From a virus, in the IMG/VR virus record IMGVR_UViG_3300022871_000054, positions 1-36,291 of that record: DNA of 36,291 nt; one strand, 5' to 3'. Positions 16,482 to 36,193 of the stretch are shown here, piece after piece. Positions within the stretch are counted from its first letter, which is position 1. Each line of letters opens with the position of its first letter. Under the pieces are notes generated by a model. That model ran no database searches, had not been told where the DNA came from, and saw only the letters and a list, made by a program, of their open reading frames with translations. The position numbers and the translations under genes are program-made.

Positions 16482-16747
16482 ATTGCCATGGATGCAGAGC
16501 AGCATATAAAAAATTGTACAACGAGGAGCCACCATGTTCAACATGCTTGCCAGATTTATTTCCCGAAAACAGACTTGTATACGAAGTATTTTGGCGTATG
16601 TTTGGATCAATCGAAAATCTGGATGTATTTATAATCATGGACATGGTGGGCATAGGGTCAGATGAACGGCTTTATTGCCTAGATCTAGTGCAGGGAGCAA
16701 AGGGCGAGGTCATGAAAGATAAGCAGCTTAAAAAGGGTAAGAAATGA
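16448..16747 (+). CDS. Tail assembly chaperone T-like extension, made by -1 frameshift
   Basis: This is the -1 frame segment giving a ~231-aa GT-type fusion (132 residues of the upstream frame plus about 99). It encodes LEEFCIRAGEVDCHGCRAAYKKLYNEEPPCSTC, with C-x2-C pairs suggesting a zinc-binding fold, then PDLFPENRLVYEVFWRMFGSIENLDVFIIM and a Lys-rich end. No ATG with an SD opens this frame (the first usable codon, TTG 16514, has none), which favours frameshift expression. The stop overlaps the tape measure ATG (ATGA). Fusion GT proteins recruit the tube protein to the tape measure. Confidence 0.72.
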   Translation, partial: LEEFCIRAGEVDCHGCRAAYKKLYNEEPPCSTCLPDLFPENRLVYEVFWRMFGSIENLDVFIIMDMVGIGSDERLYCLDLVQGAKGEVMKDKQLKKGKK

Positions 16748-19700
16748 AGCTTGGCGGAATATATATCAGTGTTGGTGCGAAGACCACGAAGCTTGCGCTT
16801 GATTTAAAAAAAGCTGAAGGGATGGCTAAAAAAACAGCCGTCTTGATGAATCATGAGCTTGGAAGTATATCCATGGGTGCTGCCACAATAGCCTTTGCAG
16901 CACTTGCCGCTGGTACAACAATGGCCACATCTAAAATAGTATCACTCGGTCGTGAATTTGAATCGACCATGAAAACCGTCCAGGCATGGTCAGGTGCCAC
17001 AGGTAAATCTCTTGAAAATCTCAATAAAATAGCCCGTGAAATGGGGGCTACAACAGAACATACAGCCACGCAGGCCGCTGGAGCATTAAAGTTCTTGGCG
17101 GCTGCTGGCTTCAGTGCCGAGCAAAGTATTGCAGCGTTACCTGGGACATTAGACCTTGCCACAGCAGCACAGGTTGATTTGAGTTTGGCAACTGATATAA
17201 CAACAGACACAATGACAGCTTTCGGAATGAAGGTTGAAGATTTATCTAGAGTTAATGACGCTTTTATTGTTGCGAGTACAGGATCAAATACCACGGTTGA
17301 AATGCTTGGCGAGTCAATGCGATATGCCGCACCTATGGCGAAGCTAATGGGTTACAATGTCGAGCAAACAGCAGCCATGTTAGGTGCATTGGCTGGTGGT
17401 GGTATAAAGGCGTCAATGGCTGGGGCTGGCTTAAATATGATCATGTTAAAATCCGCACAGTATATTAAGACAGCCGGAATAGAAGGCATGACATTTATTG
17501 ATTTATTAAAGCTAATGAAAAAGGAGCAATGGGATGCAGCGAAAATTGGTAAAGTTTTTGGAGCGAGACAGGTTAAAACGGCTGATGTTTTAGCAAGCCA
17601 AATACCTTTATATGAAAAATTGCATAAGAAAATGCAAGAGAGTGCTGGGATCACTCAAGAACTTGCAGACGTAATGAGAGATTCTCTTGACAATGATATC
17701 AAAGTTTTAAACTCAACAATTGAAGAGGAACTTTTAAGAACATTTGATGATTACAATGAATACATGCGTGACATCGTCCAGTCCACAACCGAATGGATCA
17801 GGACAAATCCTGAAGCTATAGATCAGTTTGCAGAAATGGCAAGAAATATGTTTGAGGCCGGTGCAGCCATGGCCAAAGTAATTAGCTATGCACCAGCATT
17901 TATAAATGCATTTGCAGACATTGCCGGGGCAGCCGGTCTTGCGTCAACCGGTTTGGTAAGCTGGAAAGATGCTATTTTTGGTGGTGTGGGTGTTATGAAA
18001 TTGTTTGAAACTGAGATTGGCCGTCTTGTTTTACAGGCAAGAAAACTTCAGCAAGAGATTGCCGCCCTTGAACAAACAGATAATTTACTTGGCCCGGATC
18101 CTTCCATTGCAAAAAAAGAGGCCGAGCTAAAAAAAATAGCTACTCAAATAAATAAATTAAATGTAATTATTGAAGAAACCAAAGCCTTGACATTTACAAT
18201 TGATAAAAATACCCCTGGATTTGAAAAATGGAATACAAGTGTTGAAGATGTAAACAAAAATCTAAAAAAGACAAAAGAAGCATTAACGGAAATAGAACAA
18301 GAATTGCTCGATGAAAAAATATTAAAGGCTTTAGATAAGTTTTTTGATGAGATTGAAAACCATATGACTGAAGCTGAAAAAATCCATGCAGCAATGGTTG
18401 ATACATGGGAAGAAGAAGAATTAAGAAAAATTGAAGCCACCATAGCAAATAATGAAAAAATAGCCGAAGAATCAGAACAGGCCCTTAAAGACCTTGAAAA
18501 ATTAAGACAGGAAGATATTGACGATCAGATAAAAGCATACGAGCATATGTGGGACAACATCCATGATGTTATGTCCGATTTTTGGAACGATGCCCTGGAC
18601 GGTCAAATGAACTCTTGGGATGATTTCATGGATTATATTCTTGACACTTTCAAGAAAACTTTTTCTGAAATCTTAGCGGCTGCCAGCACAGATATTGTCA
18701 TGAATGTCGTCATGGGTGTGTCTGGTGGTTCCACAAGCTCTTCTGGTGGCATTACTGGCCAGATATCCGATGCAATTACTAAAAAACTTGGTAGCTCAAT
18801 CTTTGATAAAATTGGTAGCTATTTTGGTGGGTCTGTCGCTGGGAATGGGATATCGACAGCGAGCATGAGTAGCGGAATAGGGGCCGGTCAACTTGGTGGG
18901 GTATCTTCAATGTCGGGTTGGGCGTCAACAGCCATGATGGGATCTGTAGCAGCTTTAGGTGGATTTGTAATATCAAAATTGTTTGAAGCCTTTACGGATA
19001 GCACAGACAGCGCGATTGCCTTTTTAGGAGCTGATATCACTTCCCTGGCAGTACCCGGTATACAAACTAGGGACGAACCATCCTTTGAAACTGTTGCCCC
19101 GATAGAATCAAGGACAGACAGCGCTTTGTTTGATTATGGTTTTTCAGGAGGTGATTTTAATGACGAACCAGTGCAGGCAGCGTTAATAGAATATTTTGAC
19201 GCTATTTTTACGGCCTTGGATGAGGTAACAGAATCCAGTATAAACGATGTTTTGAAAGACTTCACAAATTATAGTTTTACCGGGGCACCTGAAGATATCT
19301 CTTCTGGAGTTTTTTCTGACATGTTGGGATCGATGCTTGTTGCAATACTGCCGGATGAGGGAACAATCGAAGAGACCGTCTCACAGATGATAGGCGGTGC
19401 ATATCAAGATTATGATCCTTTCAACAACACATCATCGTTTGGTCGGGATTTTGAAAATCAACAGGCATCCGAGACGATGAAACAGATTTATCAACCCATT
19501 TATAAAGACGTAACTCAGACTGTCTCGAAATATGCAGAAACCTTTAACGAGGCTTTTTTTGATGCAATAATGCCCGAAGGCGGGAATGAATGGGATTCCC
19601 TTATATCTTTCGCTGAAACTGTCCAATCTACAGATGATTTTATTTCTAAATTTGATACAAGAATGCAAGATTTTGGATTGACAGCCATAGATGCATATAA

Positions 19701-21516
19701 CCAGATTTTATTCGTCACAGGATCCATAACAGAATTAAACGATATTGCAAATAGTTTTGGTTTGGCTCCTATTTCAAAAACAATAGAAGACTTGATGAAC
19801 GGTTTTGTAACTCTGAACACTGCTCTAATTGCAAATAATGCAACGGTTGATGAACTGGCAGACGCATACACGAATGAGACAAAAATAATGTGGGGTACAG
19901 TCGTTGATGCAAGTGGTGAATCTGCCGGGATGATAAACACAATGTCCGATGCAGTTAAAAATATTATATGGTCATCAGATCAATTAAAAATGCAGGATAT
20001 TGCAAGCCAGGGAGAACAGATTAAGGGTTTCTTTAACGATATTTATGACTCTGCTATACTTGCCGGTGATCCTGGTTTTATTGCGGGTGCGAAGGCTTTG
20101 GTAGACGGAGTTGATGTCATTGTCAATACTTTGATGTCAGTCCAGGCTTTAGATATTTATAAGGGACACTTGGAAACAATAGGCGGCATGAAAGCCGGTG
20201 TGTATGGCCTTGAAGATGAATTTAAAGCCATGCAAATTGGATCTAAATATGGCGCTCAACTCGGAACAGCTCAAGAGCAGGCGGCTTTTGTCAAATCGGT
20301 TTTGGGAATGTCAACGACCGAGTTTATTACAGCAACAGAATATTTTGGGGTATCAGTCAACGAGGCTGCAAGCGATATCGAGACTCTTGCCGGATTTGTC
20401 AAAGAAACATCAGACGCTTTTGAGGACATTGAAAGCACGATTGGGGATACAATAAAATCACTTGAAGAACAGTTTGGGATGGGTAATGCAACATCATTAT
20501 CGAGTTTAATGAAAGATTTTAACAAAGCTGCCGGTGATGCGATGTCGTCAGATTCCCTGATCGCTATGGCCGGGGCAGAAAAACTTCCAGGACTTTCAAC
20601 ACAGATCTTGACAAAAGCGCTGGCAGACGCCCCAACATCATACGAATATCAAAAAGTATACGCTAAAATAATTGGCACCATGGAAAACGTTGAAGGTGAA
20701 GCCGGGGATCAGGTAAAAGCCCTCAGCCTTGTGGATATAAATTCAGGGAATCAATTGACCGAGCTTGAAAATATTAATGGCGCTATAGGCCTAACAAATA
20801 TAGCGATTGATTCTTTACTGACCGATGGGACATTTGTTAAGGCATATACAGATTTTAACACAATTTGGAATAATGGTGCTGTTTTTAATACCCTTAATTC
20901 GACTTTGATAAGTTTAACGGGAGTTATTTCGGGCCTTACCGGAACAGCAAACCCTATTACCAATGTCGTGACAAACCCAGTTACAGGGCAAACAGGCCCG
21001 GCAAGCGTGAGCGATCCTTCGCAATGGAAAACATGGCAATTAAAAAGCACACCATCCGTATCAGGAGAGTCAGAATCAAGTCTATTGAATAAATACGGGA
21101 TATCAGGTGCAAGCGCAGCTGACATTTCAAATTCTTTGAATGAATTCAAGGCTATGGATTTCGCAGGACAGGAGGTTTGGGCAGAATATTATGGAACAGA
21201 TATAGGGTCTATGGGCCAAGATATCAATCAGCTCAAAGCTTATGGTTATGCAGATGGTGGAATTTCAACCGGGCCAGTATCAGGGTATCCAGTAACATTG
21301 CATGGCACAGAGGCAGTTATACCCATAGGTGGCAGTGATATTCCGCTGATCATAAAAAATGATTATTCAAAAGGGATCCTTTCAGAAATTAAAATACTCA
21401 GGAAAGAATTGAAACATGTCAATTCTGTGAACTCGTTAAAAATAAAAAAGATAAAACAAACCCTTGATAAAGTTACAGCAGGCAATAATTATTTTGCAAC
21501 GAAAGAGGAAGTATAA
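16744..21516 (+). CDS. Tape measure protein
   Basis: At 1590 aa this is the longest gene; its length sets tail length. Residues about 70-260 are a TP901/PhageMin_Tail-type domain (FESTMKTVQAWSGATGKSLENLNKIAREMG...AGALKFLAAAGFSAEQSIAALP...ASMAGAGLNM). A coiled-coil region follows (about 430-620), then a Gly/Ser-rich stretch with hydrophobic parts (about 655-750), long helical repeats, and the terminal GGISTGPVSGYPVTLHGTEAVIPIG common to tape measures. It ends in a basic coiled coil. Overlaps both neighbours by 1-4 nt. Confidence 0.93.
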   Translation: MKLGGIYISVGAKTTKLALDLKKAEGMAKKTAVLMNHELGSISMGAATIAFAALAAGTTMATSKIVSLGREFESTMKTVQAWSGATGKSLENLNKIAREMGATTEHTATQAAGALKFLAAAGFSAEQSIAALPGTLDLATAAQVDLSLATDITTDTMTAFGMKVEDLSRVNDAFIVASTGSNTTVEMLGESMRYAAPMAKLMGYNVEQTAAMLGALAGGGIKASMAGAGLNMIMLKSAQYIKTAGIEGMTFIDLLKLMKKEQWDAAKIGKVFGARQVKTADVLASQIPLYEKLHKKMQESAGITQELADVMRDSLDNDIKVLNSTIEEELLRTFDDYNEYMRDIVQSTTEWIRTNPEAIDQFAEMARNMFEAGAAMAKVISYAPAFINAFADIAGAAGLASTGLVSWKDAIFGGVGVMKLFETEIGRLVLQARKLQQEIAALEQTDNLLGPDPSIAKKEAELKKIATQINKLNVIIEETKALTFTIDKNTPGFEKWNTSVEDVNKNLKKTKEALTEIEQELLDEKILKALDKFFDEIENHMTEAEKIHAAMVDTWEEEELRKIEATIANNEKIAEESEQALKDLEKLRQEDIDDQIKAYEHMWDNIHDVMSDFWNDALDGQMNSWDDFMDYILDTFKKTFSEILAAASTDIVMNVVMGVSGGSTSSSGGITGQISDAITKKLGSSIFDKIGSYFGGSVAGNGISTASMSSGIGAGQLGGVSSMSGWASTAMMGSVAALGGFVISKLFEAFTDSTDSAIAFLGADITSLAVPGIQTRDEPSFETVAPIESRTDSALFDYGFSGGDFNDEPVQAALIEYFDAIFTALDEVTESSINDVLKDFTNYSFTGAPEDISSGVFSDMLGSMLVAILPDEGTIEETVSQMIGGAYQDYDPFNNTSSFGRDFENQQASETMKQIYQPIYKDVTQTVSKYAETFNEAFFDAIMPEGGNEWDSLISFAETVQSTDDFISKFDTRMQDFGLTAIDAYNQILFVTGSITELNDIANSFGLAPISKTIEDLMNGFVTLNTALIANNATVDELADAYTNETKIMWGTVVDASGESAGMINTMSDAVKNIIWSSDQLKMQDIASQGEQIKGFFNDIYDSAILAGDPGFIAGAKALVDGVDVIVNTLMSVQALDIYKGHLETIGGMKAGVYGLEDEFKAMQIGSKYGAQLGTAQEQAAFVKSVLGMSTTEFITATEYFGVSVNEAASDIETLAGFVKETSDAFEDIESTIGDTIKSLEEQFGMGNATSLSSLMKDFNKAAGDAMSSDSLIAMAGAEKLPGLSTQILTKALADAPTSYEYQKVYAKIIGTMENVEGEAGDQVKALSLVDINSGNQLTELENINGAIGLTNIAIDSLLTDGTFVKAYTDFNTIWNNGAVFNTLNSTLISLTGVISGLTGTANPITNVVTNPVTGQTGPASVSDPSQWKTWQLKSTPSVSGESESSLLNKYGISGASAADISNSLNEFKAMDFAGQEVWAEYYGTDIGSMGQDINQLKAYGYADGGISTGPVSGYPVTLHGTEAVIPIGGSDIPLIIKNDYSKGILSEIKILRKELKHVNSVNSLKIKKIKQTLDKVTAGNNYFATKEEV

Positions 21517-23649: not shown

Positions 23650-24003
23650 ATGTCAACATTTACAAAAAGAGTTTTATCCGGATCGACAAATGGCAAGGGT
23701 ATTTTAGTTGCTGCAACCGCTACCGCTGGAACAACAATTCATACAGCAGTCGCAGGAACTTCTGACTTTGATGAAATATGGCTATGGTGTGTTAATTCAA
23801 GTGCAGCGGATGTCAAACTAACCCTTGAATATGGAGAGGCAACCGCGCCGGACGGAAACATTGAGTATACGGTTGGTGCCGAAGATGGGTTAAAGATTAT
23901 TTTGCCCGGAACACTTTTACAAAATAGCCTTGTTTTAAAGGCGTTTGCAGGGTCGGCAAATGTTTTAATCATCCACGGTTTTGTTAATCGCATAGCGGCA
24001 TAG
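23650..24003 (+). CDS. Small tail-associated protein, 117 aa
   Basis: Starts MSTFTKRVLSGSTNGKGILVAATATAGTTIHTAVAGTSDFDEIWLWCVNSSAADVKLTLEYGEA, a beta-sandwich-like pattern frequent in small virion proteins located near tail fibres. No Cys cluster or membrane segment. SD AAGGAG, 10 nt after the fibre gene. Perhaps an adaptor between fibre and the DGR target; function not shown. Confidence 0.65.
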   Translation: MSTFTKRVLSGSTNGKGILVAATATAGTTIHTAVAGTSDFDEIWLWCVNSSAADVKLTLEYGEATAPDGNIEYTVGAEDGLKIILPGTLLQNSLVLKAFAGSANVLIIHGFVNRIAA

Positions 24004-24011
24004 GTGATATT

Positions 24012-25367
24012 ATGAGTAGACAATTTTTTAGAAATAGAATGGTTACTGGTGATTTGCCACAGATGTTTGATACGAGTTTGACAAATGATATTGGTGTCGC
24101 AGGGGGTATCGGGTTCGGGGTAGGCATCTGTCCACCAAGTTTATTGCCGTCTGGTATGGCTGATATGGCAGGTTCAGAAACAATAGGCGATGATAATTAT
24201 GGTAATTATCAATTTGCAGACGGTTCAATCGTATGCTGGGTTCCGATTCATTGGACAAAGATTGGGACAGGGTCTAATGGCCTTGCGGTTAACATTATCA
24301 GCATAGTTAAGTATTCCACGTATGCAAATGAAACCGCCGCCAACGCAGCAGGGTATTTTCTGCCAAGATGTTTCATTGATGGTGGATCGGTTCAACCCGG
24401 ATATTTTGTGGATAAATATGAGTGCAGCAAAAATGCCTGGGGAACGGGGTATATCGGCAGCTCAATTAAAGATGGCCTGCCTATTTCCACAGCGTCAGCC
24501 CATAACCAAATTGCAGATCTAACAGCTTGCGGTACAAATGCCAATTTTGAAGCGATAGACGCAGCTCATGCTCGTGACGGCGTAAATGGCGCTGTTAATG
24601 CTAGTTCAAATTGGTTTTGTGCGTCACGATTTATTTATGCTGATCTTGCAATGCTGTCAATGGCTCATGGCCAGGCTGCTGCTGCAACAACTTATTGTGC
24701 ATGGTACGATGCGGGTGGAACAACTAATTATCCAAAGGGATGTAATGATGATGCTCTGGGTGATGTGGATGACGGCACGATTAGTTACACGACTGATGGG
24801 TATCTTAATTGCGGGAAAACTGGTTCAAATACAGATTTGGCTAAAACAACTCATAACGGACAAAATTGCGGAGTCGCGGATCTTAACGGGAACATGTATG
24901 AAATTTCAATTGGTGTGACATCCAATGGTTCTAATTATTTTGTCGCAAATGAGTCCACGGCCATGAAGGATTTTACCAGTGGTGATTCTGACGCCACAGA
25001 CCATTGGGGAGCCACCGGTATTGCCGCCTTGATGACATCCTTTAACATTGCTTATATGCAAGCGGGTGCCTGGGCTTACCTGGGATCTGGAGCAAATCAA
25101 GTTTTGTCAGAAGCGTTGATTGGAAATGACGCTGTGCTTACGTCTTTGGGAATACCAAAGGATTCAAATGGATATGATGCCACGGGCACCAATCAATTTG
25201 GGCTGGATGGAATGTATCAGGCTCAAGTGACGAATGAGCTCTGCGTGCTCTCCGGCGGGACTTGGAACTCTGGTTCGAAGGCCGGGGTTTGGATTTCGTA
25301 TTGGATCAGCTCTCGGTCGTCTTCGAGCTACATTTATGGTTTTCGGGTCGCCTGTTACCCTGTATAG
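24012..25367 (+). CDS. DGR target: C-type lectin-like (FGE-type) variable receptor-binding protein
   Basis: This 451-aa protein ends in a C-type lectin fold of the formylglycine-generating-enzyme-like group used by DGRs: GYFVDKYECSKNAWG, the GVADLNGNMYEI motif, and the variable C-terminus LCVLSGGTWNSGSKAG...GFRVACYPV (residues 411-448). About 19 codons there are exposed to adenine-directed mutagenesis from the TR at 25809. The N-terminal ~60 residues may anchor it to the tail. By analogy with Bordetella phage BPP-1 Mtd it should bind the host receptor. Gene order target-avd-TR-RT is the canonical one. The variability is seen directly in the VR/TR comparison; ligand unknown. Confidence 0.93.
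   Translation: MSRQFFRNRMVTGDLPQMFDTSLTNDIGVAGGIGFGVGICPPSLLPSGMADMAGSETIGDDNYGNYQFADGSIVCWVPIHWTKIGTGSNGLAVNIISIVKYSTYANETAANAAGYFLPRCFIDGGSVQPGYFVDKYECSKNAWGTGYIGSSIKDGLPISTASAHNQIADLTACGTNANFEAIDAAHARDGVNGAVNASSNWFCASRFIYADLAMLSMAHGQAAAATTYCAWYDAGGTTNYPKGCNDDALGDVDDGTISYTTDGYLNCGKTGSNTDLAKTTHNGQNCGVADLNGNMYEISIGVTSNGSNYFVANESTAMKDFTSGDSDATDHWGATGIAALMTSFNIAYMQAGAWAYLGSGANQVLSEALIGNDAVLTSLGIPKDSNGYDATGTNQFGLDGMYQAQVTNELCVLSGGTWNSGSKAGVWISYWISSRSSSSYIYGFRVACYPV
25242..25355 (+). repeat. DGR variable repeat (VR)
   Basis: This 114-nt segment aligns without gaps to the TR at 25809-25922. There are 23 differences, all at positions that are A in the TR (36 A available); none of the 78 G, C or T positions differ. 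Changes are to all three other bases and include two synonymous ones. Identity breaks down at non-A positions immediately beyond both ends. Confidence 0.96.
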
Positions 25368-25384
25368 GGGCGCGATAGCGACCC
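25367..25384 (+). promoter_or_regulatory. Hairpin downstream of VR, candidate DGR target-recognition structure
   Basis: GGGGCGC (25367-25373), loop GATA, GCGACCC (25378-25384): a 7-position stem with one G-A mismatch and a tetraloop, 11 nt after VR. BPP-1 requires a GC stem with tetraloop just after VR for efficient retrohoming, so this is a likely equivalent. An alternative pairing joins CGGGTCGC (25344-25351) with GCGACCCG (25378-25385). Confidence 0.6.
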
Positions 25385-25404
25385 GATCATAAGGAGTTAA
25401 ATAT

Positions 25405-25791
25405 ATGTCTGAACCTGCCCTTAACAGAAAGTTTATGGAAATGATGAAATTATTAAATGTATATCTAAACCATTTTCCTGCACAGGAAAAATATGCACTA
25501 TCAAACCAGATCAGGAAAACAGCATATGAATTATATGATTTTATCACAGAAGGGCAGAAAAGATACTACAAGAAAACAACCTTAACAAATTTAGATATCA
25601 ATCATGAAAAATTAAGAATGCAAATTTACTTGGCATATGAACTTGGATATTTCAATTTTAAAGACGGCAGGAAATCTAAAAAGAATGTTGAAAATAAAAG
25701 ATTTTCAGCCATTTCCAGGCGAGTGGATGAGTTAGGAAAAATGATTGGTGGATGGATAAAAAAGATTAAAGAGCAAAATCAATGGAAATAA
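25405..25791 (+). CDS. avd: DGR accessory variability determinant (Avd)
   Basis: This 128-aa protein is all-helical, matching the four-helix bundle of Avd (LNRKFMEMMKLLNVYLNHFPAQEKYALSNQIRKTAYELYDFITEGQK, then LDINHEKLRMQIYLAYELGYF and RFSAISRRVDELGKMIGGWIKKIKE). Avd forms a basic pentameric barrel that binds the TR RNA and reverse transcriptase and is needed for mutagenic retrohoming. Basic residues are plentiful. SD AAGGAG. Its stop lies 17 nt before the TR and overlaps an in-frame upstream start of the RT reading frame. Confidence 0.92.
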   Translation: MSEPALNRKFMEMMKLLNVYLNHFPAQEKYALSNQIRKTAYELYDFITEGQKRYYKKTTLTNLDINHEKLRMQIYLAYELGYFNFKDGRKSKKNVENKRFSAISRRVDELGKMIGGWIKKIKEQNQWK

Positions 25792-25808
25792 AGGGAATGC
25801 CATTAACA

Positions 25809-25922
25809 TGCGTGATATCCGGCGGGAATTGGAACAATAGTTCGAAAGCCGGAGTTTGGAATTCGAATTGGAACAACAATCGGTCGAATTCGAACAACAA
25901 TAATGGTTTTCAGGTCGACTAT
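25809..25922 (+). repeat. DGR template repeat (TR)
   Basis: It is the adenine-rich donor for VR, dense in AAC/AAT (Asn) codons, so that A mutagenesis samples many residues without stops. It lies between avd and RT. It is in frame with, and has no stop before, the RT ORF, so this template could be read as protein from ATG 25782 or 25797. Confidence 0.96.
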
Positions 25923-26060
25923 AATACCTCAAACCCAGAACTTTGGGACAGTGGAATTACAGGGATGGCGTTTCCTGCATCATGCAAAATCAACAAGACA
26001 TGCGTTTTTGGTAGGCTTTTATGGTTCGAAGATCAAGCATGTCTAAATCGGGGGTATAAT

Positions 26061-27104
26061 TTGAAACGGGTCGGGAATTTGTTTGAAATCGTATTCAGTA
26101 GAGAAAATCTTTACCAGGCGTACATTGATGCCCGAAGAGGTAAGCGGAAAAAACAGGCGTGTTTTAATTTTGAAACATCACTTGGCAGTAACCTGGAATC
26201 TTTGTATATAAAAATCCACAGTGGGGATTACCGGCCAAGACCCTATAAGAAATTTACAGTGTACGAACCAAAAGAGCGCATAATTTATGCACCGGCGTTT
26301 CGGGACACAGTGGTACAGCATGCTATTTACCGGGTGGTTTATCCCATTTTTGATAATACTTTTATTGATCAATCTTTTGCATGCAGAAAAGGCAAGGGAA
26401 CACACAAATGCAGTAAACAAACACAAAAGTATATGCGCTCTTGCGGAGATGATGAATACACATTGAAGCTCGATATCAAAAAGTTTTTTTACTCAATTGA
26501 CAGGTCAATTCTCAAAAAGCTGGTTGAAAGAAAAATAAAAGACACGCATTTAGTTAATATCATGATGGCGTTTGCGGAGATGGACGCGCCGGTAGGTATC
26601 CCTATCGGTAATTTGTTAAGTCAGACTTACGCCTTGATTTTTATGAATCCGGTGGATCACTTCGTGAAACGTGTCCTGAAAATAAAAAAGTATGTCAGAT
26701 ATGTAGATGATTTTATTTTGATTGGCATCACTCGGGGTCAGTGTCTTGAATATCGGGAAAGGATTATTGATTTTATTGACAAAGAGTTGAGCCTGAAATT
26801 ATCAAAATCAACAATCCAGAAAGTCAAGAAGGGCTTGAATTTCGTTGGGTACCGAACATGGAAATCAAAGACGTTTATCCGGAAATATAGTTTGTATAAA
26901 TTTAGAAAAATGGTGAAGCAAAACAACCAGGCTGCCACAGTCTCAATTCTTGGGCATGCTAAAGGTACTAACTCACTTTTTTATATGTTCAAAATCTTAG
27001 AGGAGATTAAAAATGATATTAAAATACCAAAAAGTTTTCAAAAAATACGACGACAGGCACTCTACTACTATTACGCTGGTAGAACCAAATTACAAAGAGG
27101 ATGA
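26061..27104 (+). CDS. DGR reverse transcriptase
   Basis: The enzyme copies TR RNA to cDNA with A-specific errors. It has the DGR-specific SQ motif in GNLLSQTYALIF (S187, Q188), the catalytic YVDD (Y214-D217) with KKYVRYVDDFILI, and FRDTVVQHAIYRVVYPIFDNTFIDQSFACRKGKGTHK, a DGR RT signature. The start TTG 26061 is chosen because KRVGNLFEIVFSRENLYQAYIDARRGKRKK is how DGR RTs begin, giving 347 aa, with a GGGGG SD 6 nt upstream. The ORF is open back to 25782, through the TR. The 3' end overlaps the next gene by 92 nt. Confidence 0.93.
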   Translation: MKRVGNLFEIVFSRENLYQAYIDARRGKRKKQACFNFETSLGSNLESLYIKIHSGDYRPRPYKKFTVYEPKERIIYAPAFRDTVVQHAIYRVVYPIFDNTFIDQSFACRKGKGTHKCSKQTQKYMRSCGDDEYTLKLDIKKFFYSIDRSILKKLVERKIKDTHLVNIMMAFAEMDAPVGIPIGNLLSQTYALIFMNPVDHFVKRVLKIKKYVRYVDDFILIGITRGQCLEYRERIIDFIDKELSLKLSKSTIQKVKKGLNFVGYRTWKSKTFIRKYSLYKFRKMVKQNNQAATVSILGHAKGTNSLFYMFKILEEIKNDIKIPKSFQKIRRQALYYYYAGRTKLQRG

Positions 27105-27444
27105 TCCAAGGGTCACTGAGCTGTGCACCATAGGCAAGGATACTTTTGTTCATATCCCGGATGATCTTGTCTTGCCGGAACAGCCGTTCAATCTGGATGT
27201 GACAATGGAGGCCGTCACACTTACCGATGAACTTCGTACAGAAATCAAAGCAGTATCACCCCATGTTAGATTGATCAATGCAAGGGTAGTGGAGAAAATC
27301 CGGGCTAAATATTCTGAAAATGATGAGTTCAAAATGTTGCGCGTTAAAGCAGACGGCGAACAGATTCAAAGTAAAGAATATTCTAAGCATGTTGAGAGCT
27401 GTACTGCCTGGGGGTTGACTGAAAAAGGTAAAATGGGGTTGTAA
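27013..27444 (+). CDS. Conserved phage tail-region hypothetical, 143 aa
   Basis: Starts within the RT 3' end after a perfect AGGAG SD (27001-27005, 7 nt spacing), a placement that favours this start over later ones. The sequence KVFKKYDDRHSTTITLVEPNYKEDDPRVTELCTIGKDTFVHIPDDLVLPEQP and VTLTDELRTEIKAVSPHVRLINARVVEKIRAKYSENDEFKML resembles proteins found after tail fibre genes in phages of Gram-negative bacteria. No enzyme motif. It is coupled to the following gene (TAATG). The 92-nt overlap with RT shows that the DGR was inserted before, or grew into, an established gene. Confidence 0.72.
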   Translation: MILKYQKVFKKYDDRHSTTITLVEPNYKEDDPRVTELCTIGKDTFVHIPDDLVLPEQPFNLDVTMEAVTLTDELRTEIKAVSPHVRLINARVVEKIRAKYSENDEFKMLRVKADGEQIQSKEYSKHVESCTAWGLTEKGKMGL

Positions 27445-28196
27445 TGAATTTAAAAGAATTCTTCACGGCCTTTGGCTACTACGGCTCAAACCCAGTTCAG
27501 CAGGCAAATTTAAATGCCAAGCTGTACGGTGATTTTGTCGGCTGGGGTCAAAACAGCAAGAGCGCAAACCAACTCCAGGTTATGATTGACCGAGTGTGCA
27601 AATATGACACTATCCACCCGGACGATCTAATAGCTCTGTTGAACCGATGTGGATTCAACACTTGGGAACAACTTGAAGAATGGCTTATCGTTTCAGATGG
27701 CCTATTATTTAATCCACAAGGATACATTGATATTATTGATCCACCTGTGCCGGATCTTGGGACGTTACAGCAGATATCTGTTTATGATTTGCGGTATATC
27801 ATCCGGTCGATTACTGGTATCCATCCTTTCGACCTTGTAGAGGAAGATATGGTTTATCAGCTTATCCCAAAAGACCGGATGCAAGATATTATAGATGCTT
27901 GCCCGGCTGACAGACAGGCTTTTGTAGACGAATCAAGAGATTGTGACGATTATGTGAGGATGTTGCGTGGTTGGTTGTCACGTTGGGGATACGGAAACCT
28001 GGCAATCCATAGTCTTACGGTAATGCTCAGGTATAAAGGGGTTGATACATATCGGCACAAAATGGCCGGAATATCGAACGACGCTAACGAATTTTGGTTC
28101 TTTGATCCACAGGGTGCTTGGCTGTTGTGGAAATTCGGAGAGTACCCAAAAATTGCTAATTGTGATGAAATTAAAATTGAAAAAATATTAATTTAA
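27444..28196 (+). CDS. MOA-like cysteine-peptidase-fold protein
   Basis: This 250-aa protein has a C-terminal half like the papain-type domain of the MOA agglutinin: R165-D-C167-D-D-Y170, a helix MLRGWLSRWGYGNLAI, then H205-K-M-A-G and W-F-F-D221-P-Q. C167, H205 and D221 could form a Cys-His-Asp triad. The N-terminal ~100 residues are unassigned. It lies at the end of the late operon before a small membrane protein and a terminator, a position typical for lysis or attachment genes. It could be an unusual lytic enzyme or a virion-attached protease; no lysozyme or amidase was found in the window. Confidence 0.5.
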   Translation: MNLKEFFTAFGYYGSNPVQQANLNAKLYGDFVGWGQNSKSANQLQVMIDRVCKYDTIHPDDLIALLNRCGFNTWEQLEEWLIVSDGLLFNPQGYIDIIDPPVPDLGTLQQISVYDLRYIIRSITGIHPFDLVEEDMVYQLIPKDRMQDIIDACPADRQAFVDESRDCDDYVRMLRGWLSRWGYGNLAIHSLTVMLRYKGVDTYRHKMAGISNDANEFWFFDPQGAWLLWKFGEYPKIANCDEIKIEKILI

Positions 28197-28219
28197 ACAA
28201 AGTATTAATTTAGACAAAT
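28186..28219 (+). repeat. Two tandem 17-nt A+T-rich repeats
   Basis: TATTAATTTAAACAAAG (28186-28202) and TATTAATTTAGACAAAT (28203-28219) sit end to end and differ at two positions, across the stop codon of the preceding gene. Purpose unknown; replication slippage is the simplest source. Confidence 0.6.
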
Positions 28220-28289
28220 TGAATATATGAGGTTCTAAATGAACTTTGAAAAACGCAAGAACAATTAATTTCGCATAAAGGGGAAAAAC

Positions 28290-28442
28290 ATGGAATTTTT
28301 AACTGATCCAAAAACATTGGCAATCGGGAGCATTTTGGTTTTAGCGGCAAGTGAAATTATCGGTATGAATCCTAAATGGCAGTCAAACGGTGTTGTGCAA
28401 GTGGTTATGGCCGGACTGAAAAGGATATTTAGAATAAAATAA
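28290..28442 (+). CDS. Small membrane-associated protein, 50 aa
   Basis: Short ORF with SD AAAGGGG. It has one hydrophobic segment (LAIGSILVLAASEIIGM), the sequence NPKWQSNGVVQVVMAGLKRIF and a basic end. Similar short proteins with a single membrane segment and a serine/asparagine-rich turn occur at the end of phage late operons and are often taken as holins. Last gene before the strong terminator. Confidence 0.55.
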   Translation: MEFLTDPKTLAIGSILVLAASEIIGMNPKWQSNGVVQVVMAGLKRIFRIK

Positions 28443-28460
28443 AATAATTTTATTATTATC

Positions 28461-28507
28461 AAAATCCCATGGCGATTATATTTATTGTCATGGGATTTTT
28501 TTATTTA
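28461..28507 (+). terminator. Strong intrinsic terminator ending the late operon
   Basis: AAAATCCCATG (28461-28471) pairs perfectly with CATGGGATTTT (28489-28499), with more pairs including G-U inside the loop, and a T-run follows. The A-rich upstream side could also serve the opposite strand. Confidence 0.88.
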
Positions 28508-28529
28508 AAGACAAAATGTAAAATAATCC

Positions 28530-28558
28530 TTGACAACATGTCTTTTTGTTTATATCTT
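28530..28558 (+). promoter_or_regulatory. Sigma70-type promoter of the replication/recombination operon
   Basis: TTGACA 28530-28535, 17-nt spacer, TATCTT 28553-28558. It directly follows the late terminator and precedes the TTG-start gene at 28588 by 30 nt. Confidence 0.65.
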
Positions 28559-28587
28559 GAAATAAACAATAAAAAAGGAGGGTTAAA

Positions 28588-28812
28588 TTGGCTAAATCAG
28601 AACGGTTGGAGAAAGAGCTTGATAGAATAAATTTATTGAGCATTATGGAAAAGCTTGAAAAACGCGGGTTTAAAGAGCAAAGCGTCAAAAAGGCTTTCAT
28701 GAGAGGATCAATATCAAAGGAGCTTGCACCGGTGCTGGAAGAATACACCTCTGTATCAGCTCTTTTTTGGATGCTCCCAGACATTTACAAGACAAATGGT
28801 GAAAGGAGATGA
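28588..28812 (+). CDS. Hypothetical protein, 74 aa, TTG start
   Basis: First gene after the promoter. The TTG start is backed by a full AAGGAGG SD 5 nt upstream. The N-terminus is charged and helical (KSERLEKELDRINLLSIMEKLEKRGFKEQSVKKAF), followed by MRGSISKELAPVLEEYTSVSALFWMLPDIYK. No family recognised; an early regulator or a small DNA-binding helper is possible. Ends overlapping a possible upstream start of the next gene. Confidence 0.65.
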   Translation: MAKSERLEKELDRINLLSIMEKLEKRGFKEQSVKKAFMRGSISKELAPVLEEYTSVSALFWMLPDIYKTNGERR

Positions 28813-28850
28813 ACTCAACTAAAAAATCGGTTTATGTTTATGGAGAAAAA

Positions 28851-29015
28851 ATGAAAAACCTATTCTGGAAAAAATACACGTCAATCGAGCAGCATATCAA
28901 TGACATTGACGTTGAGGAACCCTTGAGCCCTGCCATGTGTCTGTTATGTGTGGTTGGTATTTTGATGGTGGGAGTGTTGGGTTTTATTTTGATTGTGGTT
29001 GGATTATCATTTTAA
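28851..29015 (+). CDS. Small single-TM protein, 54 aa
   Basis: MKNLFWKKYTSIEQHINDIDVEEPLSP is followed by a strong membrane segment (AMCLLCVVGILMVGVLGFILIVVGLSF) at the very C-terminus, a tail-anchored layout. Start 28851 has GGAG 5 nt upstream; an in-frame ATG at 28809 would add 14 residues, but its AAGGAG abuts the ATG, which is too close. Function unknown. Confidence 0.55.
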   Translation: MKNLFWKKYTSIEQHINDIDVEEPLSPAMCLLCVVGILMVGVLGFILIVVGLSF

Positions 29016-29028
29016 AAGGAGCAGCAAA

Positions 29029-29403
29029 ATGGACCCTGAAAAATTAGAAGAATTAAAAGCCATCATTGAAGGTGAAGCTTACAACCAATATGATGACCAG
29101 ATGAAAGCTAAGGAAAATATTGATATCCTTGCCAAGGCTGCAAAGGGAGTCTTTCTTATTGAGCCAGGGATCTTCAAAAAACTGGTAAAATTTCATTACG
29201 AAAAATCAATGGAAAATGAACGGCGCAAATTCAGCGAGGTTGATGACCTTTATATTGAGATTTTTGGGGAGCCTGAACCGGAGCTGGATCTTTTCAGCGA
29301 GGAAGAAATCAAAGAAGATTCTGACCCGATCAATAACACCATTGACAAGGATGAAGTTTTGGACAAAATCAAATATGGAGCTAAAAGGAATAAAAACCAA
29401 TGA
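29029..29403 (+). CDS. T4 DsbA-like DNA-binding protein (putative)
   Basis: This 124-aa protein is acidic and helical. DILAKAAKGVFLIEPGIFKKLVKFHYEKSMENERRKFSEVDDLYIEIFG resembles the core of the T4 late-transcription helper DsbA, a small dsDNA-binding protein. A disordered acidic segment follows (GEPEPELDLFSEEEIKEDSD). Start 29029 is chosen for its AAGGAG SD; an upstream in-frame ATG at 28993 lies within the membrane gene. ATGA overlap with the recombination gene suggests a joint role in DNA transactions. Family call is tentative. Confidence 0.5.
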   Translation: MDPEKLEELKAIIEGEAYNQYDDQMKAKENIDILAKAAKGVFLIEPGIFKKLVKFHYEKSMENERRKFSEVDDLYIEIFGEPEPELDLFSEEEIKEDSDPINNTIDKDEVLDKIKYGAKRNKNQ

Positions 29404-30623
29404 CAAAAACAACAGAGTTAGAAACCGCCATGGTCCGTATACAAGACCTTGAACAAAAAAATGTTGTAGCCATAGGCACGGATGAAGCCTTCGCACTGAT
29501 CGACAAAGACGGCCAAATTAAAGCCTTTAAAACAATGCTTACCCTGTCTATCAAGGACGGAACCCTTGTCGAAATTGGAAAGAGTTTTGGGAACTATAAA
29601 GCACCTGTAGCCATATCTGCACAAGGTTTTGAAATTTGGGCTGAAAAGACCGGGGCCAGCGTGATTTTCCCTAAAGATGTATTGGTGGGCGATACCCTAA
29701 AACCAAACCCATACATGGAGCGGGATCCTAAAAATAACCGTGTCCTTGCTGTTCATGCCCGGGCGGTAGCTTTTAAATACTCTCCCATGGGATTGCCCCA
29801 GGTGTGCGATTGGTCAACCATATTTGATGTCCCTTCATATCGCATGATTGATCTGCTTGCCAAAGCCAAAAAGAAACCGCAGGCCTTTAAATTGCTGCCA
29901 AATGAAATGGCACCGGCTGCCGACAATAATGAGACATGGGCAAAATATCCTTTTGATGAAGCCACAAGCCTATGGTTGAACACTTCCCACAACGAGGTTT
30001 TAGACTGGTTCAAATCAATCATAAACCGTGAAAAAAAGGCCATGGACTTCGCACAGACCTTTGCACGTCGTAATGCCCTAAAACATCTTTCAGGGCTACA
30101 GAAACCGCCAGAGGGTTTGCATCAATGGTCTTTCCCTGTTTTATCATGGCGACCTACCGGCAATAATATTGTCAAATGGGATGCCAGCCAATATGAGCAG
30201 CTTCAGGGCCGGGTGTCAAGCATGATTGAAGGGGACCACAACGAATTCGATGCAGGCAAAACAAAGCAGCTTGAAGTCAAAAAAGGCGTTGAGACTATTT
30301 CGCATGAGCTTGACACGAATGAGATTGAAGATGATTTGAATCCGGATGACCCGGCCGAGAAGGAAAGCCAGCCAGCGCCAAAAAAGCCAGCTAAAAAAGA
30401 GCCTGAACCAGTCAAGGAACCAGAGCCAGCCAAAGTCCAGACGACAGAAAGAGAACTCACAGACGCTCAAAAACAGGTCATTGCGGCGGCTGGTAAATTC
30501 CAGGCAGAAGCAACCCAGGCCAAGACAGAGCTTGATTTTACTGTTGATTGGGATGAATTTACGGACTCAATGGCCAAACGGTTTTTTAAACGGTTGAATG
30601 AGATTTTGGATGGTGAGGAATAA
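29400..30623 (+). CDS. RecT/Red-beta-like single-strand annealing protein (putative)
   Basis: This 407-aa protein has a ~280-residue globular part and a Lys/Pro/Glu-rich linker (KKPAKKEPEPVKEPEPAK) leading to a C-terminal helical tail. The globular part contains NPYMERDPKNN, VAFKYSPMGLPQV and MDFAQTFARRNALKHLSGL, which parallels the RecT region in which a basic helix follows a W- or F-containing turn. Annealing proteins are normally next to an exonuclease; here an SbcC-type ATPase follows. An alternative is an ERF- or Sak-type protein. Coupled to the upstream gene by ATGA. Confidence 0.5.
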   Translation: MTKTTELETAMVRIQDLEQKNVVAIGTDEAFALIDKDGQIKAFKTMLTLSIKDGTLVEIGKSFGNYKAPVAISAQGFEIWAEKTGASVIFPKDVLVGDTLKPNPYMERDPKNNRVLAVHARAVAFKYSPMGLPQVCDWSTIFDVPSYRMIDLLAKAKKKPQAFKLLPNEMAPAADNNETWAKYPFDEATSLWLNTSHNEVLDWFKSIINREKKAMDFAQTFARRNALKHLSGLQKPPEGLHQWSFPVLSWRPTGNNIVKWDASQYEQLQGRVSSMIEGDHNEFDAGKTKQLEVKKGVETISHELDTNEIEDDLNPDDPAEKESQPAPKKPAKKEPEPVKEPEPAKVQTTERELTDAQKQVIAAAGKFQAEATQAKTELDFTVDWDEFTDSMAKRFFKRLNEILDGEE

Positions 30624-30636
30624 ATAATAATCGGCT

Positions 30637-30698
30637 CCGGGTTTAAAAAACCTTGTGTCCATGGATGCGCGCTTAAATGGATCGCACAAAAGACCCGG
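30637..30698 (+). promoter_or_regulatory. Long-range inverted repeat before the SbcC-like gene
   Basis: CCGGGT (30637-30642) and ACCCGG (30693-30698) flank a 50-nt loop in the otherwise gene-free 30624-30716 interval and end just before the SD (AAGGAG) of the next gene. No T-run; it may control translation of the ATPase. Confidence 0.35.
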
Positions 30699-30716
30699 CC
30701 CAAAAAAGGAGCGAAA

Positions 30717-31736
30717 ATGATAACAAAAATTTCAACCAAAGGATTCAAAGGCTTTGATATTAACGAGCCTGTCCACCCAAAAACAATATACGTCGGCAAA
30801 AACAAATCAGGCAAATCGTCACGGTCCCATGCAATTGCCCTGACCCTACTCGGATATATCCCATTTGCTGCCAAAACCAATAAAAAACCGGCTGATATTC
30901 TCAATGATTTTGGAGTGGGCGATTCACTGACAACAGCCATTGTTTGCAACGGAGTGGAATTTGAGCGTCATTATTCCCGCAGCAAAAAAGGTGTGGTATC
31001 CCAAAAGATGCGGGTCGACAAAAAGAAAGTAAGCGCCACAGATTATGCCGTTATGCTTTCCAATGCCGGGGCGCCAAGGATAGTTGATGTTCCTGATTTT
31101 ATTTTAATGAGCGATCAGAAAAAAATTGACATGCTGTTTGAGCTTTTCCCGCCTGATGCCAATCTGAAAACCCTTGAAAGCAAGATTGACAAAGCAAAGC
31201 AAAAAGTCAATGAGATGCAGGCCCAGGAAAGAACGTCAACCTCTGCAATCCAGCAATTGACTGCCAGGAAATCAGAGATTGAAGTGCCTGCCGGATCCTT
31301 ACCCGAGATCAAGGCCGATATTGAAACCACGACACAGGCTGTTCTTGATGCCAGGGAAAGCCTTAAAAAAATTGAGATTGATGAGGCAAAGGAAAAGGCC
31401 AAGGCTGAACAAAAGACGGATTCCCAGGCGACGTTTGATGCGATTATGGCTAAGAATACTAAAGAGTGGGTGCCTGAGCCTGAAACCCCAAGACATACCC
31501 ATGAAGAGGCTGAAAATATTGTTAATTTTGTTAGAAATGATATGGCGCCAGGTCGGGTTGTCGATGCAGAGTTTGATAAGGCCGCATTTGAAAATTTTAA
31601 GAAAGCTGAAATCGTCAATCCGTCGATATCAATCCAAGCCATTATTGATACCATGATTGATGCAGGGTGCGAAACATGCGCCAGTTTATTGGTTGCGAAA
31701 ATGGAGCTTAAAAAGTTTAAAGGCGGTGTTAAATGA
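30717..31736 (+). CDS. Rad50/SbcC-like ATPase, N-terminal half
   Basis: This 339-aa protein begins ITKISTKGFKGFDINEPVHPKTIYVGKNKSGKSSRSHAIALTLLGY, with the Walker A motif G27-KNKS-G32-K-S. Coiled coils follow from about residue 155 (KIDKAKQKVNEMQAQERTSTSAIQQL...). The end has C318-E-T-C321, the CxxC zinc-hook pattern found at the apex of Rad50 coiled coils. It contains no ABC signature or Walker B; those are in the gene at 31929. Together they would rebuild one SMC-type head. The next ORF starts inside its stop (ATGA). Confidence 0.75.
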   Translation: MITKISTKGFKGFDINEPVHPKTIYVGKNKSGKSSRSHAIALTLLGYIPFAAKTNKKPADILNDFGVGDSLTTAIVCNGVEFERHYSRSKKGVVSQKMRVDKKKVSATDYAVMLSNAGAPRIVDVPDFILMSDQKKIDMLFELFPPDANLKTLESKIDKAKQKVNEMQAQERTSTSAIQQLTARKSEIEVPAGSLPEIKADIETTTQAVLDARESLKKIEIDEAKEKAKAEQKTDSQATFDAIMAKNTKEWVPEPETPRHTHEEAENIVNFVRNDMAPGRVVDAEFDKAAFENFKKAEIVNPSISIQAIIDTMIDAGCETCASLLVAKMELKKFKGGVK

Positions 31737-31936
31737 AAAAAGCAAAACAGAAAATATCATGGCAAAAACATCCTGGGACGAACACAGAGCATTTTTTTAT
31801 TGATAAAACACCTGGGGCGCTAAGTGTGTGCAAGCGAGCCAGCGCCACAACAGGGCCTTTTCATTCCGTATCTGTTGACTCGTTTATCTGTTCTATTTGC
31901 CGAGCGAAAATTGAAAAGGAGCAAGCTGATGAATAA
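31733..31936 (+). CDS. Small Cys-containing protein between the ATPase halves, 67 aa
   Basis: Basic protein with C33 and a C53-S-I-C56 pair, ending KIEKEQADE; possibly a small zinc-binding protein. It overlaps both flanking SbcC-like genes by 4-8 nt, so it is part of the same translational unit and may help to join or regulate the two halves. Family not recognised. Confidence 0.55.
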   Translation: MKKAKQKISWQKHPGTNTEHFFIDKTPGALSVCKRASATTGPFHSVSVDSFICSICRAKIEKEQADE

Positions 31937-32477
31937 ACAAATCCTAACAGACCAAATAGCCGGGTTGATATCAAAAGGCCAAAACCTACGCGCCCAAGAA
32001 GCCGTATTCCTGAAATTACAAGGAATTAATGAAACCATAGAAAAAACAAAACAGGAAAGAGGCTTGACACAAAGCGCTCTTTTAGTTGCCAAGATGGACA
32101 GAAAAGAATTGATCGCCAAGAAAAATGAGGCTGTGTCTGCATCATTCAGCAAGATCATTGATAAAATGGGTGAGGTCCTGCCAAGTGGTCGGGCTGCTAT
32201 CAATCTTGATGATGGTTTGTTTATTGGGTGGGAGGTTGAGGAGGACGGGATTTACACGCCTTATAATGGGCTTTCAGGTGGCGAAAAACAGATATTTGAT
32301 ACCGCTTTGGCTCATGTATTGGATTCGAATATCATTATCGTTGAGGGCGCTGAATTGGATAACGATCATCTTTTGGCCGCAATGGAGGATTTGAACGATA
32401 TTGATAAGCAAGTATTAATGGCGACCTGCCACCCAGTAGCGACTGTGCCGGATAGTTTCAAGGTTATTAAGGTTTAA
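31929..32477 (+). CDS. Rad50/SbcC-like ATPase, C-terminal half
   Basis: This 182-aa protein starts with a coiled coil (about 1-75) and ends with an ATPase C-half: the ABC signature N113-GLSGGEKQIFDTALA (LSGGEK 115-120), then a Walker B-like strand SNIIIVEGAELDND (134-146) where the usual Asp-Glu pair is replaced by V-E-G, and a final VLMATCHPVATVP. It lacks a Walker A. ATG 31929 is chosen because it lies in the overlap with the preceding gene, whose Lys/Glu-rich end carries the SD (AAGGAG). It should pair with the 30717 product. Confidence 0.75.
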   Translation: MNKQILTDQIAGLISKGQNLRAQEAVFLKLQGINETIEKTKQERGLTQSALLVAKMDRKELIAKKNEAVSASFSKIIDKMGEVLPSGRAAINLDDGLFIGWEVEEDGIYTPYNGLSGGEKQIFDTALAHVLDSNIIIVEGAELDNDHLLAAMEDLNDIDKQVLMATCHPVATVPDSFKVIKV

Positions 32478-32487
32478 AGGAGGGATT

Positions 32488-32724
32488 ATGTCATTTGTAT
32501 TATACCGAAAAGAGATACGCTGCCCAAATTGTGAATATGAAGGGCCAGCGCAAATAAAAGGGGTTGGGTGTGGATTTGCCATCATGTTTATTTTCATGCT
32601 CCTGCTTTCATTTTTGATTTGGCCTCTATTCATTGTGGTCGGCATCATGCTTTTATACATGGTCATTAAACCAGCAGATCAGATTTGCCCGGAGTGTAAA
32701 TATCCTAATCCTATACCGATCTAA
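32488..32724 (+). CDS. LITAF-like zinc-ribbon membrane protein, 78 aa
   Basis: Layout CPNC (about 12-15), a hydrophobic core (GCGFAIMFIFMLLLSFLIWPLFIVVGIMLLYMV) and CPECKYPNP at the end: a zinc ribbon split by a membrane-embedded segment, as in LITAF-like domains. The two Cys pairs would meet at the cytoplasmic membrane face. SD AAAGGAGGG. A role in membrane signalling or host takeover is possible; unproven. Confidence 0.6.
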   Translation: MSFVLYRKEIRCPNCEYEGPAQIKGVGCGFAIMFIFMLLLSFLIWPLFIVVGIMLLYMVIKPADQICPECKYPNPIPI

Positions 32725-32732
32725 AAAATAAC

Positions 32733-32761
32733 TTGACAGGCCATTGAGAAGGGAATAAATT
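32733..32761 (+). promoter_or_regulatory. Sigma70-type promoter of the candidate ncRNA
   Basis: TTGACA 32733-32738 and TAAATT 32756-32761 are separated by 17 nt, predicting a start near 32767. TTGACAGG also begins the promoter at 35620. Confidence 0.7.
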
Positions 32762-32766
32762 ATCAA

Positions 32767-32903
32767 TATGCGAAGTTCGAAGATTAAATATGATTTTACT
32801 TTTGAGTTGTCCCAAGCTGCGAAGCCGGAGCCTTTCTTTGACAGGTGCATAGACTCAATTATATTAAAGCCCGTAGACAATCCCAAGTTTACGGGCTTTT
32901 TTT
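32767..32903 (+). ncRNA. Candidate small RNA with its own promoter and terminator
   Basis: About 135 nt lie between a good promoter and a strong terminator. No ORF in it has an SD; the one possible reading frame (from 32768) would run through the terminator. Internal pairings are visible: TTGAGT (32802-32807) with ACTCAA (32853-32858), and inside it TGTC (32808-32811) with GACA (32840-32843). The interval 32725-33216 (491 nt without a convincing gene) otherwise shows nothing recognisable after the terminator. It might act as a regulatory or antisense RNA. Confidence 0.55.
32866..32903 (+). terminator. Strong intrinsic terminator of the candidate ncRNA
   Basis: AAAGCCCGTAGAC (32866-32878) pairs with GTTTACGGGCTTT (32887-32899) with one G-U pair, an 8-nt loop and a run of seven T residues. 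Confidence 0.9.
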
Positions 32904-33216
32904 ATTCCTTTCTTGTGTTGCCCTTGATGCGGGGTTTTTTGGTACTGTTAAGCTCGGTAGCCAGAATAAACAGGCAAAATGTCATTCCCTTTTTATGTGG
33001 CCTCAGTTTTCAAGGCAAAAACTGGTCAGCTTTCGGTTGGACTGGAAACGGTTCAAACAGGATTGATTATCCTTCCATAAAATAATCGGATGCGGTTTTC
33101 ACACTCCCGGTAATTGTGTACCTGACAAGAACACAGAAAGACTAAGCTTTAAGGATTGTTTAATATGGATGACAACGGCATCAAAAGACAGGTATATTTA
33201 AAATGAAGGCTTTATT

Positions 33217-33576
33217 ATGAGCTTAAACCAACTATATAGGCATTATGATAAAGAAGATAATTTGCTTTATGTCGGGATATCTTTACATCAAATAAGCAGA
33301 TTAGCACAGCATAAAATAAGTTCTATTTGGTACCGTTCAATTGTAAAAATAATATTAGAAACTTATCCAGATAGGCGATCTGTTTTAGATGCAGAGAAAA
33401 TTGCGATAATTAATGAAGGGCCTATATTTAATAAACAGCACCAAACAAAACAATGTCCAGAAGCAATCTTATATAAAAAAAATTTGTATAGGATATATAA
33501 ATATAGGCAGGAATATCTTAGACTTAGGGAATTAGAGAAAAATACAAATGGAATTATTCTAAGGAGCAAAAAATGA
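33217..33576 (+). CDS. GIY-YIG nuclease-like protein
   Basis: This 119-aa protein begins with the two short strands of the GIY-YIG fold in variant form: LYRHY (6-10) and LYVGIS (17-22), then the conserved R28 (SRLAQH) and a Glu in the helix (E60 in LDAEKIAI). Small stand-alone members are homing or repair nucleases in phages. It is A+T-richer than the helicase gene it overlaps by 4 nt (ATGA). No obvious target in the window. Confidence 0.75.
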   Translation: MSLNQLYRHYDKEDNLLYVGISLHQISRLAQHKISSIWYRSIVKIILETYPDRRSVLDAEKIAIINEGPIFNKQHQTKQCPEAILYKKNLYRIYKYRQEYLRLRELEKNTNGIILRSKK

Positions 33577-35336: not shown

Positions 35337-35360
35337 CAACTTTCTTAAAATATGTAATTC
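35333..35360 (+). promoter_or_regulatory. Promoter upstream of the 55-aa gene
   Basis: TTGACA 35333-35338, 16-nt spacer, TAATTC 35355-35360 preceded by TG. It overlaps the helicase stop region and serves the ORF at 35428. Confidence 0.5.
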
Positions 35361-35427: not shown

Positions 35428-35595
35428 ATGAGAGGCGGAAAAAGGAAGGGCTCAGGGCGTAAAAAATCACCTGATAGCAAAATACAATATTCAACAAGGC
35501 TCAGGCCAGACCTGATTGAATGGCTCAAATCAAGAAATGCAGCAAGAGAGATTGAAGCTGCCCTGGATGACCGGATTAAATCTTTTTTAAATTAA
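35428..35595 (+). CDS. Small RHH-like DNA-binding protein, 55 aa
   Basis: Very basic start (RGGKRKGSGRKKSPDSK), then YSTRLRPDLIEWLKSRNAAREIEAALDDRIKSF: a beta strand plus two helices typical of ribbon-helix-helix repressors. SD GGAGG. It has its own promoter and its final residues DRIKSFLN are encoded in a 127-nt repeat also found at the end of the next-but-one ORF. Likely an autorepressor or early regulator. Confidence 0.65.
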   Translation: MRGGKRKGSGRKKSPDSKIQYSTRLRPDLIEWLKSRNAAREIEAALDDRIKSFLN

Positions 35596-35693
35596 TTTCA
35601 TTTTTCTTTGAAAAAAGACTTGACAGGTATCTAAAAGGTGTGTATAGTACAGACATGATGAAAACAAACACACATAACGAGGAGTCAAACATG
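35567..35693 (+). repeat. 127-nt exact repeat, copy 1 (gene end + promoter + leader + ATG)
   Basis: Identical to 36165-36291. It contains the last 9 codons of the preceding ORF, a promoter, a leader with an SD and the following ATG. The bases before the two copies differ (g/c). Confidence 0.97.
35620..35648 (+). promoter_or_regulatory. Sigma70 promoter within repeat copy 1
   Basis: TTGACA 35620-35625, 17 nt, TATAGT 35643-35648. Predicted to drive the ORF at 35691, which has GAGGAG upstream. Confidence 0.8.
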
Positions 35694-36016: not shown

Positions 36017-36193
36017 ATGGAAAAGAAATGCAAAAACTGTAAGAATATGGATATCTGCAAGATGTATCTGGACCTGGTCGAAATGGCCATCATGCTCAAC
36101 ACGAACATGCGGAAAAATGATCTTGATGAAAATGGCTTTACGGTCATGGCAAACACCATGGCCCATGACCGGATTAAATCTTTTTTAAATTAA
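36017..36193 (+). CDS. Small Cys-rich protein, 58 aa
   Basis: MEKKCKNCKNMDICKMYLDLVEMAIMLNTNM: three Cys (5, 8, 14) suggest a metal-binding N-terminus, then a helix. The last nine residues (HDRIKSFLN region) come from repeat copy 2 and are shared with the 55-aa protein at 35428. SD AAAGGG. If the repeat is an assembly artefact, the true C-terminus may differ. Confidence 0.5.
   Translation: MEKKCKNCKNMDICKMYLDLVEMAIMLNTNMRKNDLDENGFTVMANTMAHDRIKSFLN

Follow-up and report, generated by a model that had tools for sequence, protein, structure and literature searches.

Sequence comparisons point to a complete and recently active DGR of the BPP-1 type in a phage tail module

Introduction

The phage contig of IMG/VR record IMGVR_UViG_3300022871_000054, here called the window (the whole 36,291 nt analysed, whose numbering is used throughout), carries a pair of similar sequences beside a reverse transcriptase (RT) gene in its tail module. 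An initial annotation read this locus as a complete adenine-mutagenic diversity-generating retroelement (DGR). Metagenomes have already yielded tens of thousands of DGRs (PMC8144416), and the presence of one more is in itself unsurprising. The question raised by the locus is rather whether the element is complete and has been at work recently, and which parts of its DNA and RNA direct the process.

Results

VR differs from TR exclusively at adenines

In the window, the tape measure gene (16744–21516) is followed by three more tail-region ORFs and then by the target ORF (24012–25367), with which the order target–VR–Avd–TR–RT begins; all of these DGR features lie on the + strand. The variable repeat (VR; 25242–25355) and the template repeat (TR; 25809–25922) align without gaps over 114 nt and differ at 23 positions, every one of them a TR adenine, which reproduces both the count and the coordinates of the initial annotation. 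Thus, 23 of the 36 TR adenines are changed in the VR (9 A>T, 7 A>C and 7 A>G), compared with 0 of the 78 other bases (hypergeometric P = 3e-15). The similarity ends immediately past 25355. Two of the changes are synonymous, as previously claimed (K423, AAA>AAG, and G425, GGA>GGG). A permissive scan of the window (≤30 non-A mismatches) found no second copy of either the VR or the TR. Pooling of 18 TR/VR pairs, among them some close relatives, gave differences at 301 of 563 adenines and at 7 of 1,521 other bases.

The last 18 positions of the VR (25338–25355, + strand) form the IMH region and contain GCCT where the TR reads GACT (IMH*, 25917–25920). Both elements are named in earlier work (PMC6328139, PMC12875486). 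The VR reads GCCT in 20 of the 20 loci whose TR has GACT. Random A-to-N changes would not yield C each time; the difference between IMH and IMH* at this site is therefore fixed, and the A>C at 25351 is not a product of mutagenesis. The A>G difference at 25354, 3′ of 25351 and also inside the IMH, is probably fixed in the same way. The claim that the 23 differences arose by mutagenesis consequently stands for about 21 of them, whereas at least one, and probably two, are IMH/IMH* differences. The mutagenised part of the VR thus spans about 25242–25350, and the transfer endpoint must lie 5′ of 25351. In BPP-1, IMH and IMH* also differ from each other.

The target is predicted to have an FGE-type C-type lectin fold

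The target ORF encodes 451 aa and has the VR at its C-terminal end. Sequence searches with the protein gave no Pfam or PDB match, and only a weak match to the tail family phrog_5302 over residues 399–450. In an AlphaFold2 model built from 19 relatives (pTM 0.81), an insert at about residues 225–287 and parts of the VR are of low confidence (pLDDT <50). The best PDB match of the model is TaqVP (5vf4; Z 20.8, 279 aligned residues, 17% identity), followed by Mtd (Z about 8), PvdO (Z 7.9) and TvpA (Z 7.3). The modelled fold is that of an FGE-type C-type lectin, the usual DGR scaffold, in agreement with the lectin-like tail protein proposed initially. Host attachment is commonly inferred for phage DGRs (PMC8144416), and the predicted fold, together with the location of the gene behind the tape measure and tail genes, suggests that the target is probably a host-binding protein.

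The RT has intact motifs and, like Avd, is under purifying selection

Downstream of the target, an ORF of 128 aa (25405–25791) matches the accessory protein Avd (PF22296, 7.8e-18; phrog_3206, 9.9e-19). The RT matches RVT_1 and phrog_1423 (1.3e-105); among solved structures, the BPP-1 bRT is its best relative (8ub7, 5e-51; the next one, 2.8e-21). The GNLLSQ and YVDD motifs of the RT are intact. The Avd and the DGR-type RT with SQ and YVDD reported beside the TR are both borne out. For the RT, dN is 0.08–0.14 where dS is >1 or saturated, and dN/dS of Avd is far below 1; an inactivating RT mutation, named at the outset as a potential refutation, is not what we found.

The RT start had been placed at 25782, where the longest ORF opens; this ORF spans the TR. 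However, homologous RTs begin with MKR... at the position corresponding to TTG 26061, just upstream of which lies a GGGGG. Judging from these relatives, the RT probably starts at about TTG 26061 (26061–27104, 347 aa) and the earlier start is misplaced. We accordingly rejected a translation of the TR as the N-terminal part of the RT. As for the TR being RT coding sequence at all, the frame from TR to RT is broken in five relatives (L003, L004, L005, L008 and L014). From the interrupted upstream frames and the starts of the homologous RTs, it follows that the TR is probably non-coding.

The 3′ end of the RT is overlapped by a conserved gene of 143 aa (27013–27444, + strand). In relatives without a DGR (L013, L021), this gene directly adjoins the target on its downstream side; it is probably tail-related and not DGR-specific. 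Placing the phage taxonomically by TerL gave distant matches only, all at <60% identity; related loci in Geobacter and Geobacteraceae MAGs lead us to guess at Geobacterales as the host. Elsewhere in the window, an ORF between the head-tail connector and the tail genes (14139–15449) has weak matches to glycosyltransferase families. An exact 127-nt repeat occupies 35567–35693 and 36165–36291, with the second copy running up to the very end of the window; a repeat of this length in this place suggests overlap in the assembly graph, and the last 600 bases are possibly an artefact.

A hairpin follows the VR

Just past the target stop, and directly after the VR-bearing gene, we found a hairpin or cruciform (25367–25384, + strand; GGGGCGC-GATA-GCGACCC, with one G·A mismatch) that the initial annotation had omitted. 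In BPP-1, the target-site stem is required and variable in sequence, and its loop follows GRNA (Guo et al., PMC3240598). The GATA loop of the window agrees with this published consensus. Relatives bearing a DGR keep the GATA loop (GGTA in L037) while their stems vary; in L014, L023, L024, L027, L031, L033 and L036, tandem G·A/A·G occurs at one stem position and the inner two pairs covary. Conversely, the hairpin is absent from the target homologues without avd/RT (L013, L018, L020, L021, L022 and L025), in whose records, possibly fragments, no RT was found. Target homologues that lack avd, RT, TR and hairpin alike, with the gene order of L013 and L021, suggest that the cassette is gained or lost as a unit. 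A perfect 9-bp inverted repeat (25343–25351/25378–25386) was also considered as the target structure, and was set aside because one of its bases, 25345, lies in the VR and is mutagenised, and because the conserved GATA hairpin competes with it.

The spacer between TR and RT is a structured RNA

The second element missing from the earlier reading is a structured RNA between TR and RT (25919–26040, + strand) with seven covarying helices. Among 14 spacer sequences, 91% of the cells are paired in these helices. Double-change cells numbered 61, compared with 21 in shuffles, and the signal collapsed when the partners were slid by one column. Folding of the single sequence was not above shuffles (z −0.34), and Rfam has no family above threshold in the window, spacer included. 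Covariance models of the spacer found matches outside their training set in Pseudomonas phage Bise, in L023 and in three Geobacterales MAG loci. A scan of 297 genomes from the same phylum yielded three matches to the model, each next to an RT and an Avd gene; one of these three genomes had supplied the starting locus. Against BPP-1 (even with filters off), ACA1 and VP58.5, the model gave no meaningful match.

Within this RNA, IMH* contributes an invariant CU whose pairing partner, AG at 25961–25962, is invariant as well. In BPP-1, the folded spacer recruits bRT-Avd, and an internal adenine serves as the primer (PMC12875486); for the window, we infer that A25961 is the priming nucleotide. It is possible, if on balance doubtful, that the spacer is a distinct, uncurated RNA class that could serve as a DGR finder, that the CU-AG pairing of IMH* marks the priming adenosine, and that some hairpins of the lineage carry tandem G·A instead of plain GC.

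Sibling contigs reveal recent activity

The strongest evidence for activity comes from a sibling contig, IMGVR_UViG_3300005911_000203 (L038), which matches window positions 23987–35358 with only 6 substitutions in 11,372 nt. All six (25260, 25261, 25266, 25270, 25293 and 25294) are located in the VR and at TR adenines, and the four codons that they alter all change the amino acid. A search for more window-like alleles by exact DNA pattern turned up only this known sibling. The same behaviour is seen in three other pairs from this DGR lineage. L006 and L007, which have a common TR, differ by 24 substitutions in 5.1 kb, of which 20 are in the VR and 20 of 20 at TR adenines. Between L014 and L017, 21 of 28 substitutions are in the VR, 19 of these at TR adenines, and the Geobacter MAG contigs L044 and L045 have 17 VR differences, 16 of them at TR adenines. 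The TR is without differences in the pairs window/L038, L006/L007 and L014/L017, while the VR differs at TR adenines. The polymorphism at A positions of the VR that the initial annotation had proposed to look for in reads was thus present, on sibling contigs instead. As a separate observation, L006 contains extra 112-nt direct repeats (1492–1626 and 1707–1818) with a third related copy near 6121–6207; these are not adenine-specific.

Could the pair of repeats have arisen without a working DGR? In this window the reading frame of the RT ORF continues open through the TR, which encodes a VR-like peptide, as would be expected of ordinary paralogous repeats, i.e. a duplicated gene end that diverged by coincidence or positive selection. 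The restriction of the differences to adenines, with none at the 78 other bases, refutes this explanation. Two of the differences are moreover synonymous, a dedicated Avd and RT are present, and the TR frame is broken before the RT in the five relatives listed above; we see virtually no chance for it. A static comparison of TR and VR cannot by itself date the mutagenesis, and the VR might have diverged by past mutagenesis in an element that is now silent. Such a relic is nevertheless highly improbable given a sibling identical over 11.4 kb bar six VR changes at adenine sites, three further sibling pairs with VR changes at TR adenines, intact catalytic motifs, and a dN of RT and Avd far lower than their dS. 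As far as sequences can tell, the locus is almost certainly a complete, recently active phage DGR of the BPP-1 type, in support of the initial claim of a complete, adenine-mutagenic element in the tail module, with Avd, DGR RT, TR/VR pair and lectin-fold target.

How the window and its sibling came to differ is a separate matter. Their six changes are confined to VR positions 19–53, a 35-nt stretch in the 5′ half, and the 3′ half has 21 adenine sites, none of which differs. If both halves were rewritten independently at the rate of L006/L007, the chance of such a 5′-only pattern would be about 8e-9. The pattern is the reverse of what a single 3′-anchored retrohoming event should produce. This clustering would fit an origin of the VR-only differences other than fresh retrohoming, namely homologous recombination between VR alleles or a chimeric assembly of the metagenome. 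Mismatched TR/VR alleles in other phages indeed show that alleles get exchanged: the VR of L028 derives from the TR of L027, and that of L033 from the TR of L028 (swapped-allele regions L027 2288–2991, L028 7071–7774 and L033 5885–6588), so TR alleles recombine between related phages. On the other hand, the window and sibling alleles differ at TR-A sites only and must hence have been made by the DGR, and in the pairs L006/L007 and L014/L017 the differences extend over the entire VR. We consider it rather unlikely that recombination or chimerism accounts for the differences in place of retrohoming, but recombination of VR alleles or assembly mixing may well have contributed to this one pair.

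Discussion

The DGR in the window is a known type of mutation machine and a new, clean and well-supported example of it. It shares with the BPP-1 DGR the order mtd-VR-avd-TR-brt, the Avd and RT families and the adenine-only TR/VR differences, as well as a C-terminal VR in a lectin-fold tail protein, a GRNA-type hairpin after the VR (PMC3240598) and a structured spacer between TR and RT (PMC12875486). It differs in that its RT is 34% identical to that of BPP-1, that the spacer model of its lineage does not match the BPP-1 spacer, and that its target is nearer to TaqVP than to Mtd (Z 20.8 vs 8). TaqVP, from a Thermus aquaticus prophage DGR, is the closest solved fold and likewise an FGE-type C-type lectin with a C-terminal VR (PMC6328139), although identity is low and the window model has the additional low-confidence insert. 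In the phage collection, the closest RT of a cultured phage is that of Pseudomonas phage Bise (OR683401; 50.9% over 95% of the ORF). The Bise DGR has 9 of 9 TR/VR differences at A, the same spacer RNA and a hairpin with a GGTA loop; its neighbours, however, include an annotated baseplate J protein, and its target is not matched by that of the window. The DGRs of Geobacter and Geobacteraceae MAGs (L043–L045) and of environmental phage contigs (L003–L008) have RTs 55–86% identical, the same order and the same spacer RNA, but other target sequences and VR alleles.

By analogy with BPP-1, the RT-Avd complex would bind the avd-TR-spacer-RT transcript through the folded spacer and assemble into an RNP, and cDNA synthesis would be primed within the spacer/IMH* region. 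Synthesis would then proceed through the TR in the direction of its 5′ end and insert random bases wherever the template has an adenine. If integration works as in BPP-1, the cDNA, directed by the IMH and the GATA-loop hairpin downstream, would take the place of the VR at the 3′ end of the gene for the lectin-fold tail protein, leaving the TR unchanged. The probable ligand-binding face of the tail protein would consequently exist in many versions across the phage population and, as in BPP-1, may serve receptor binding.

The value of the locus lies in its natural siblings, whose six template-adenine changes in 11.4 kb come near to an experimental proof of activity. In addition, divergent relatives are numerous enough in this lineage for covariation to outline the spacer RNA, the target-site hairpin and the boundary between IMH and IMH*. 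This leads to testable predictions, namely of the priming nucleotide and of the 3′ limit of transfer.
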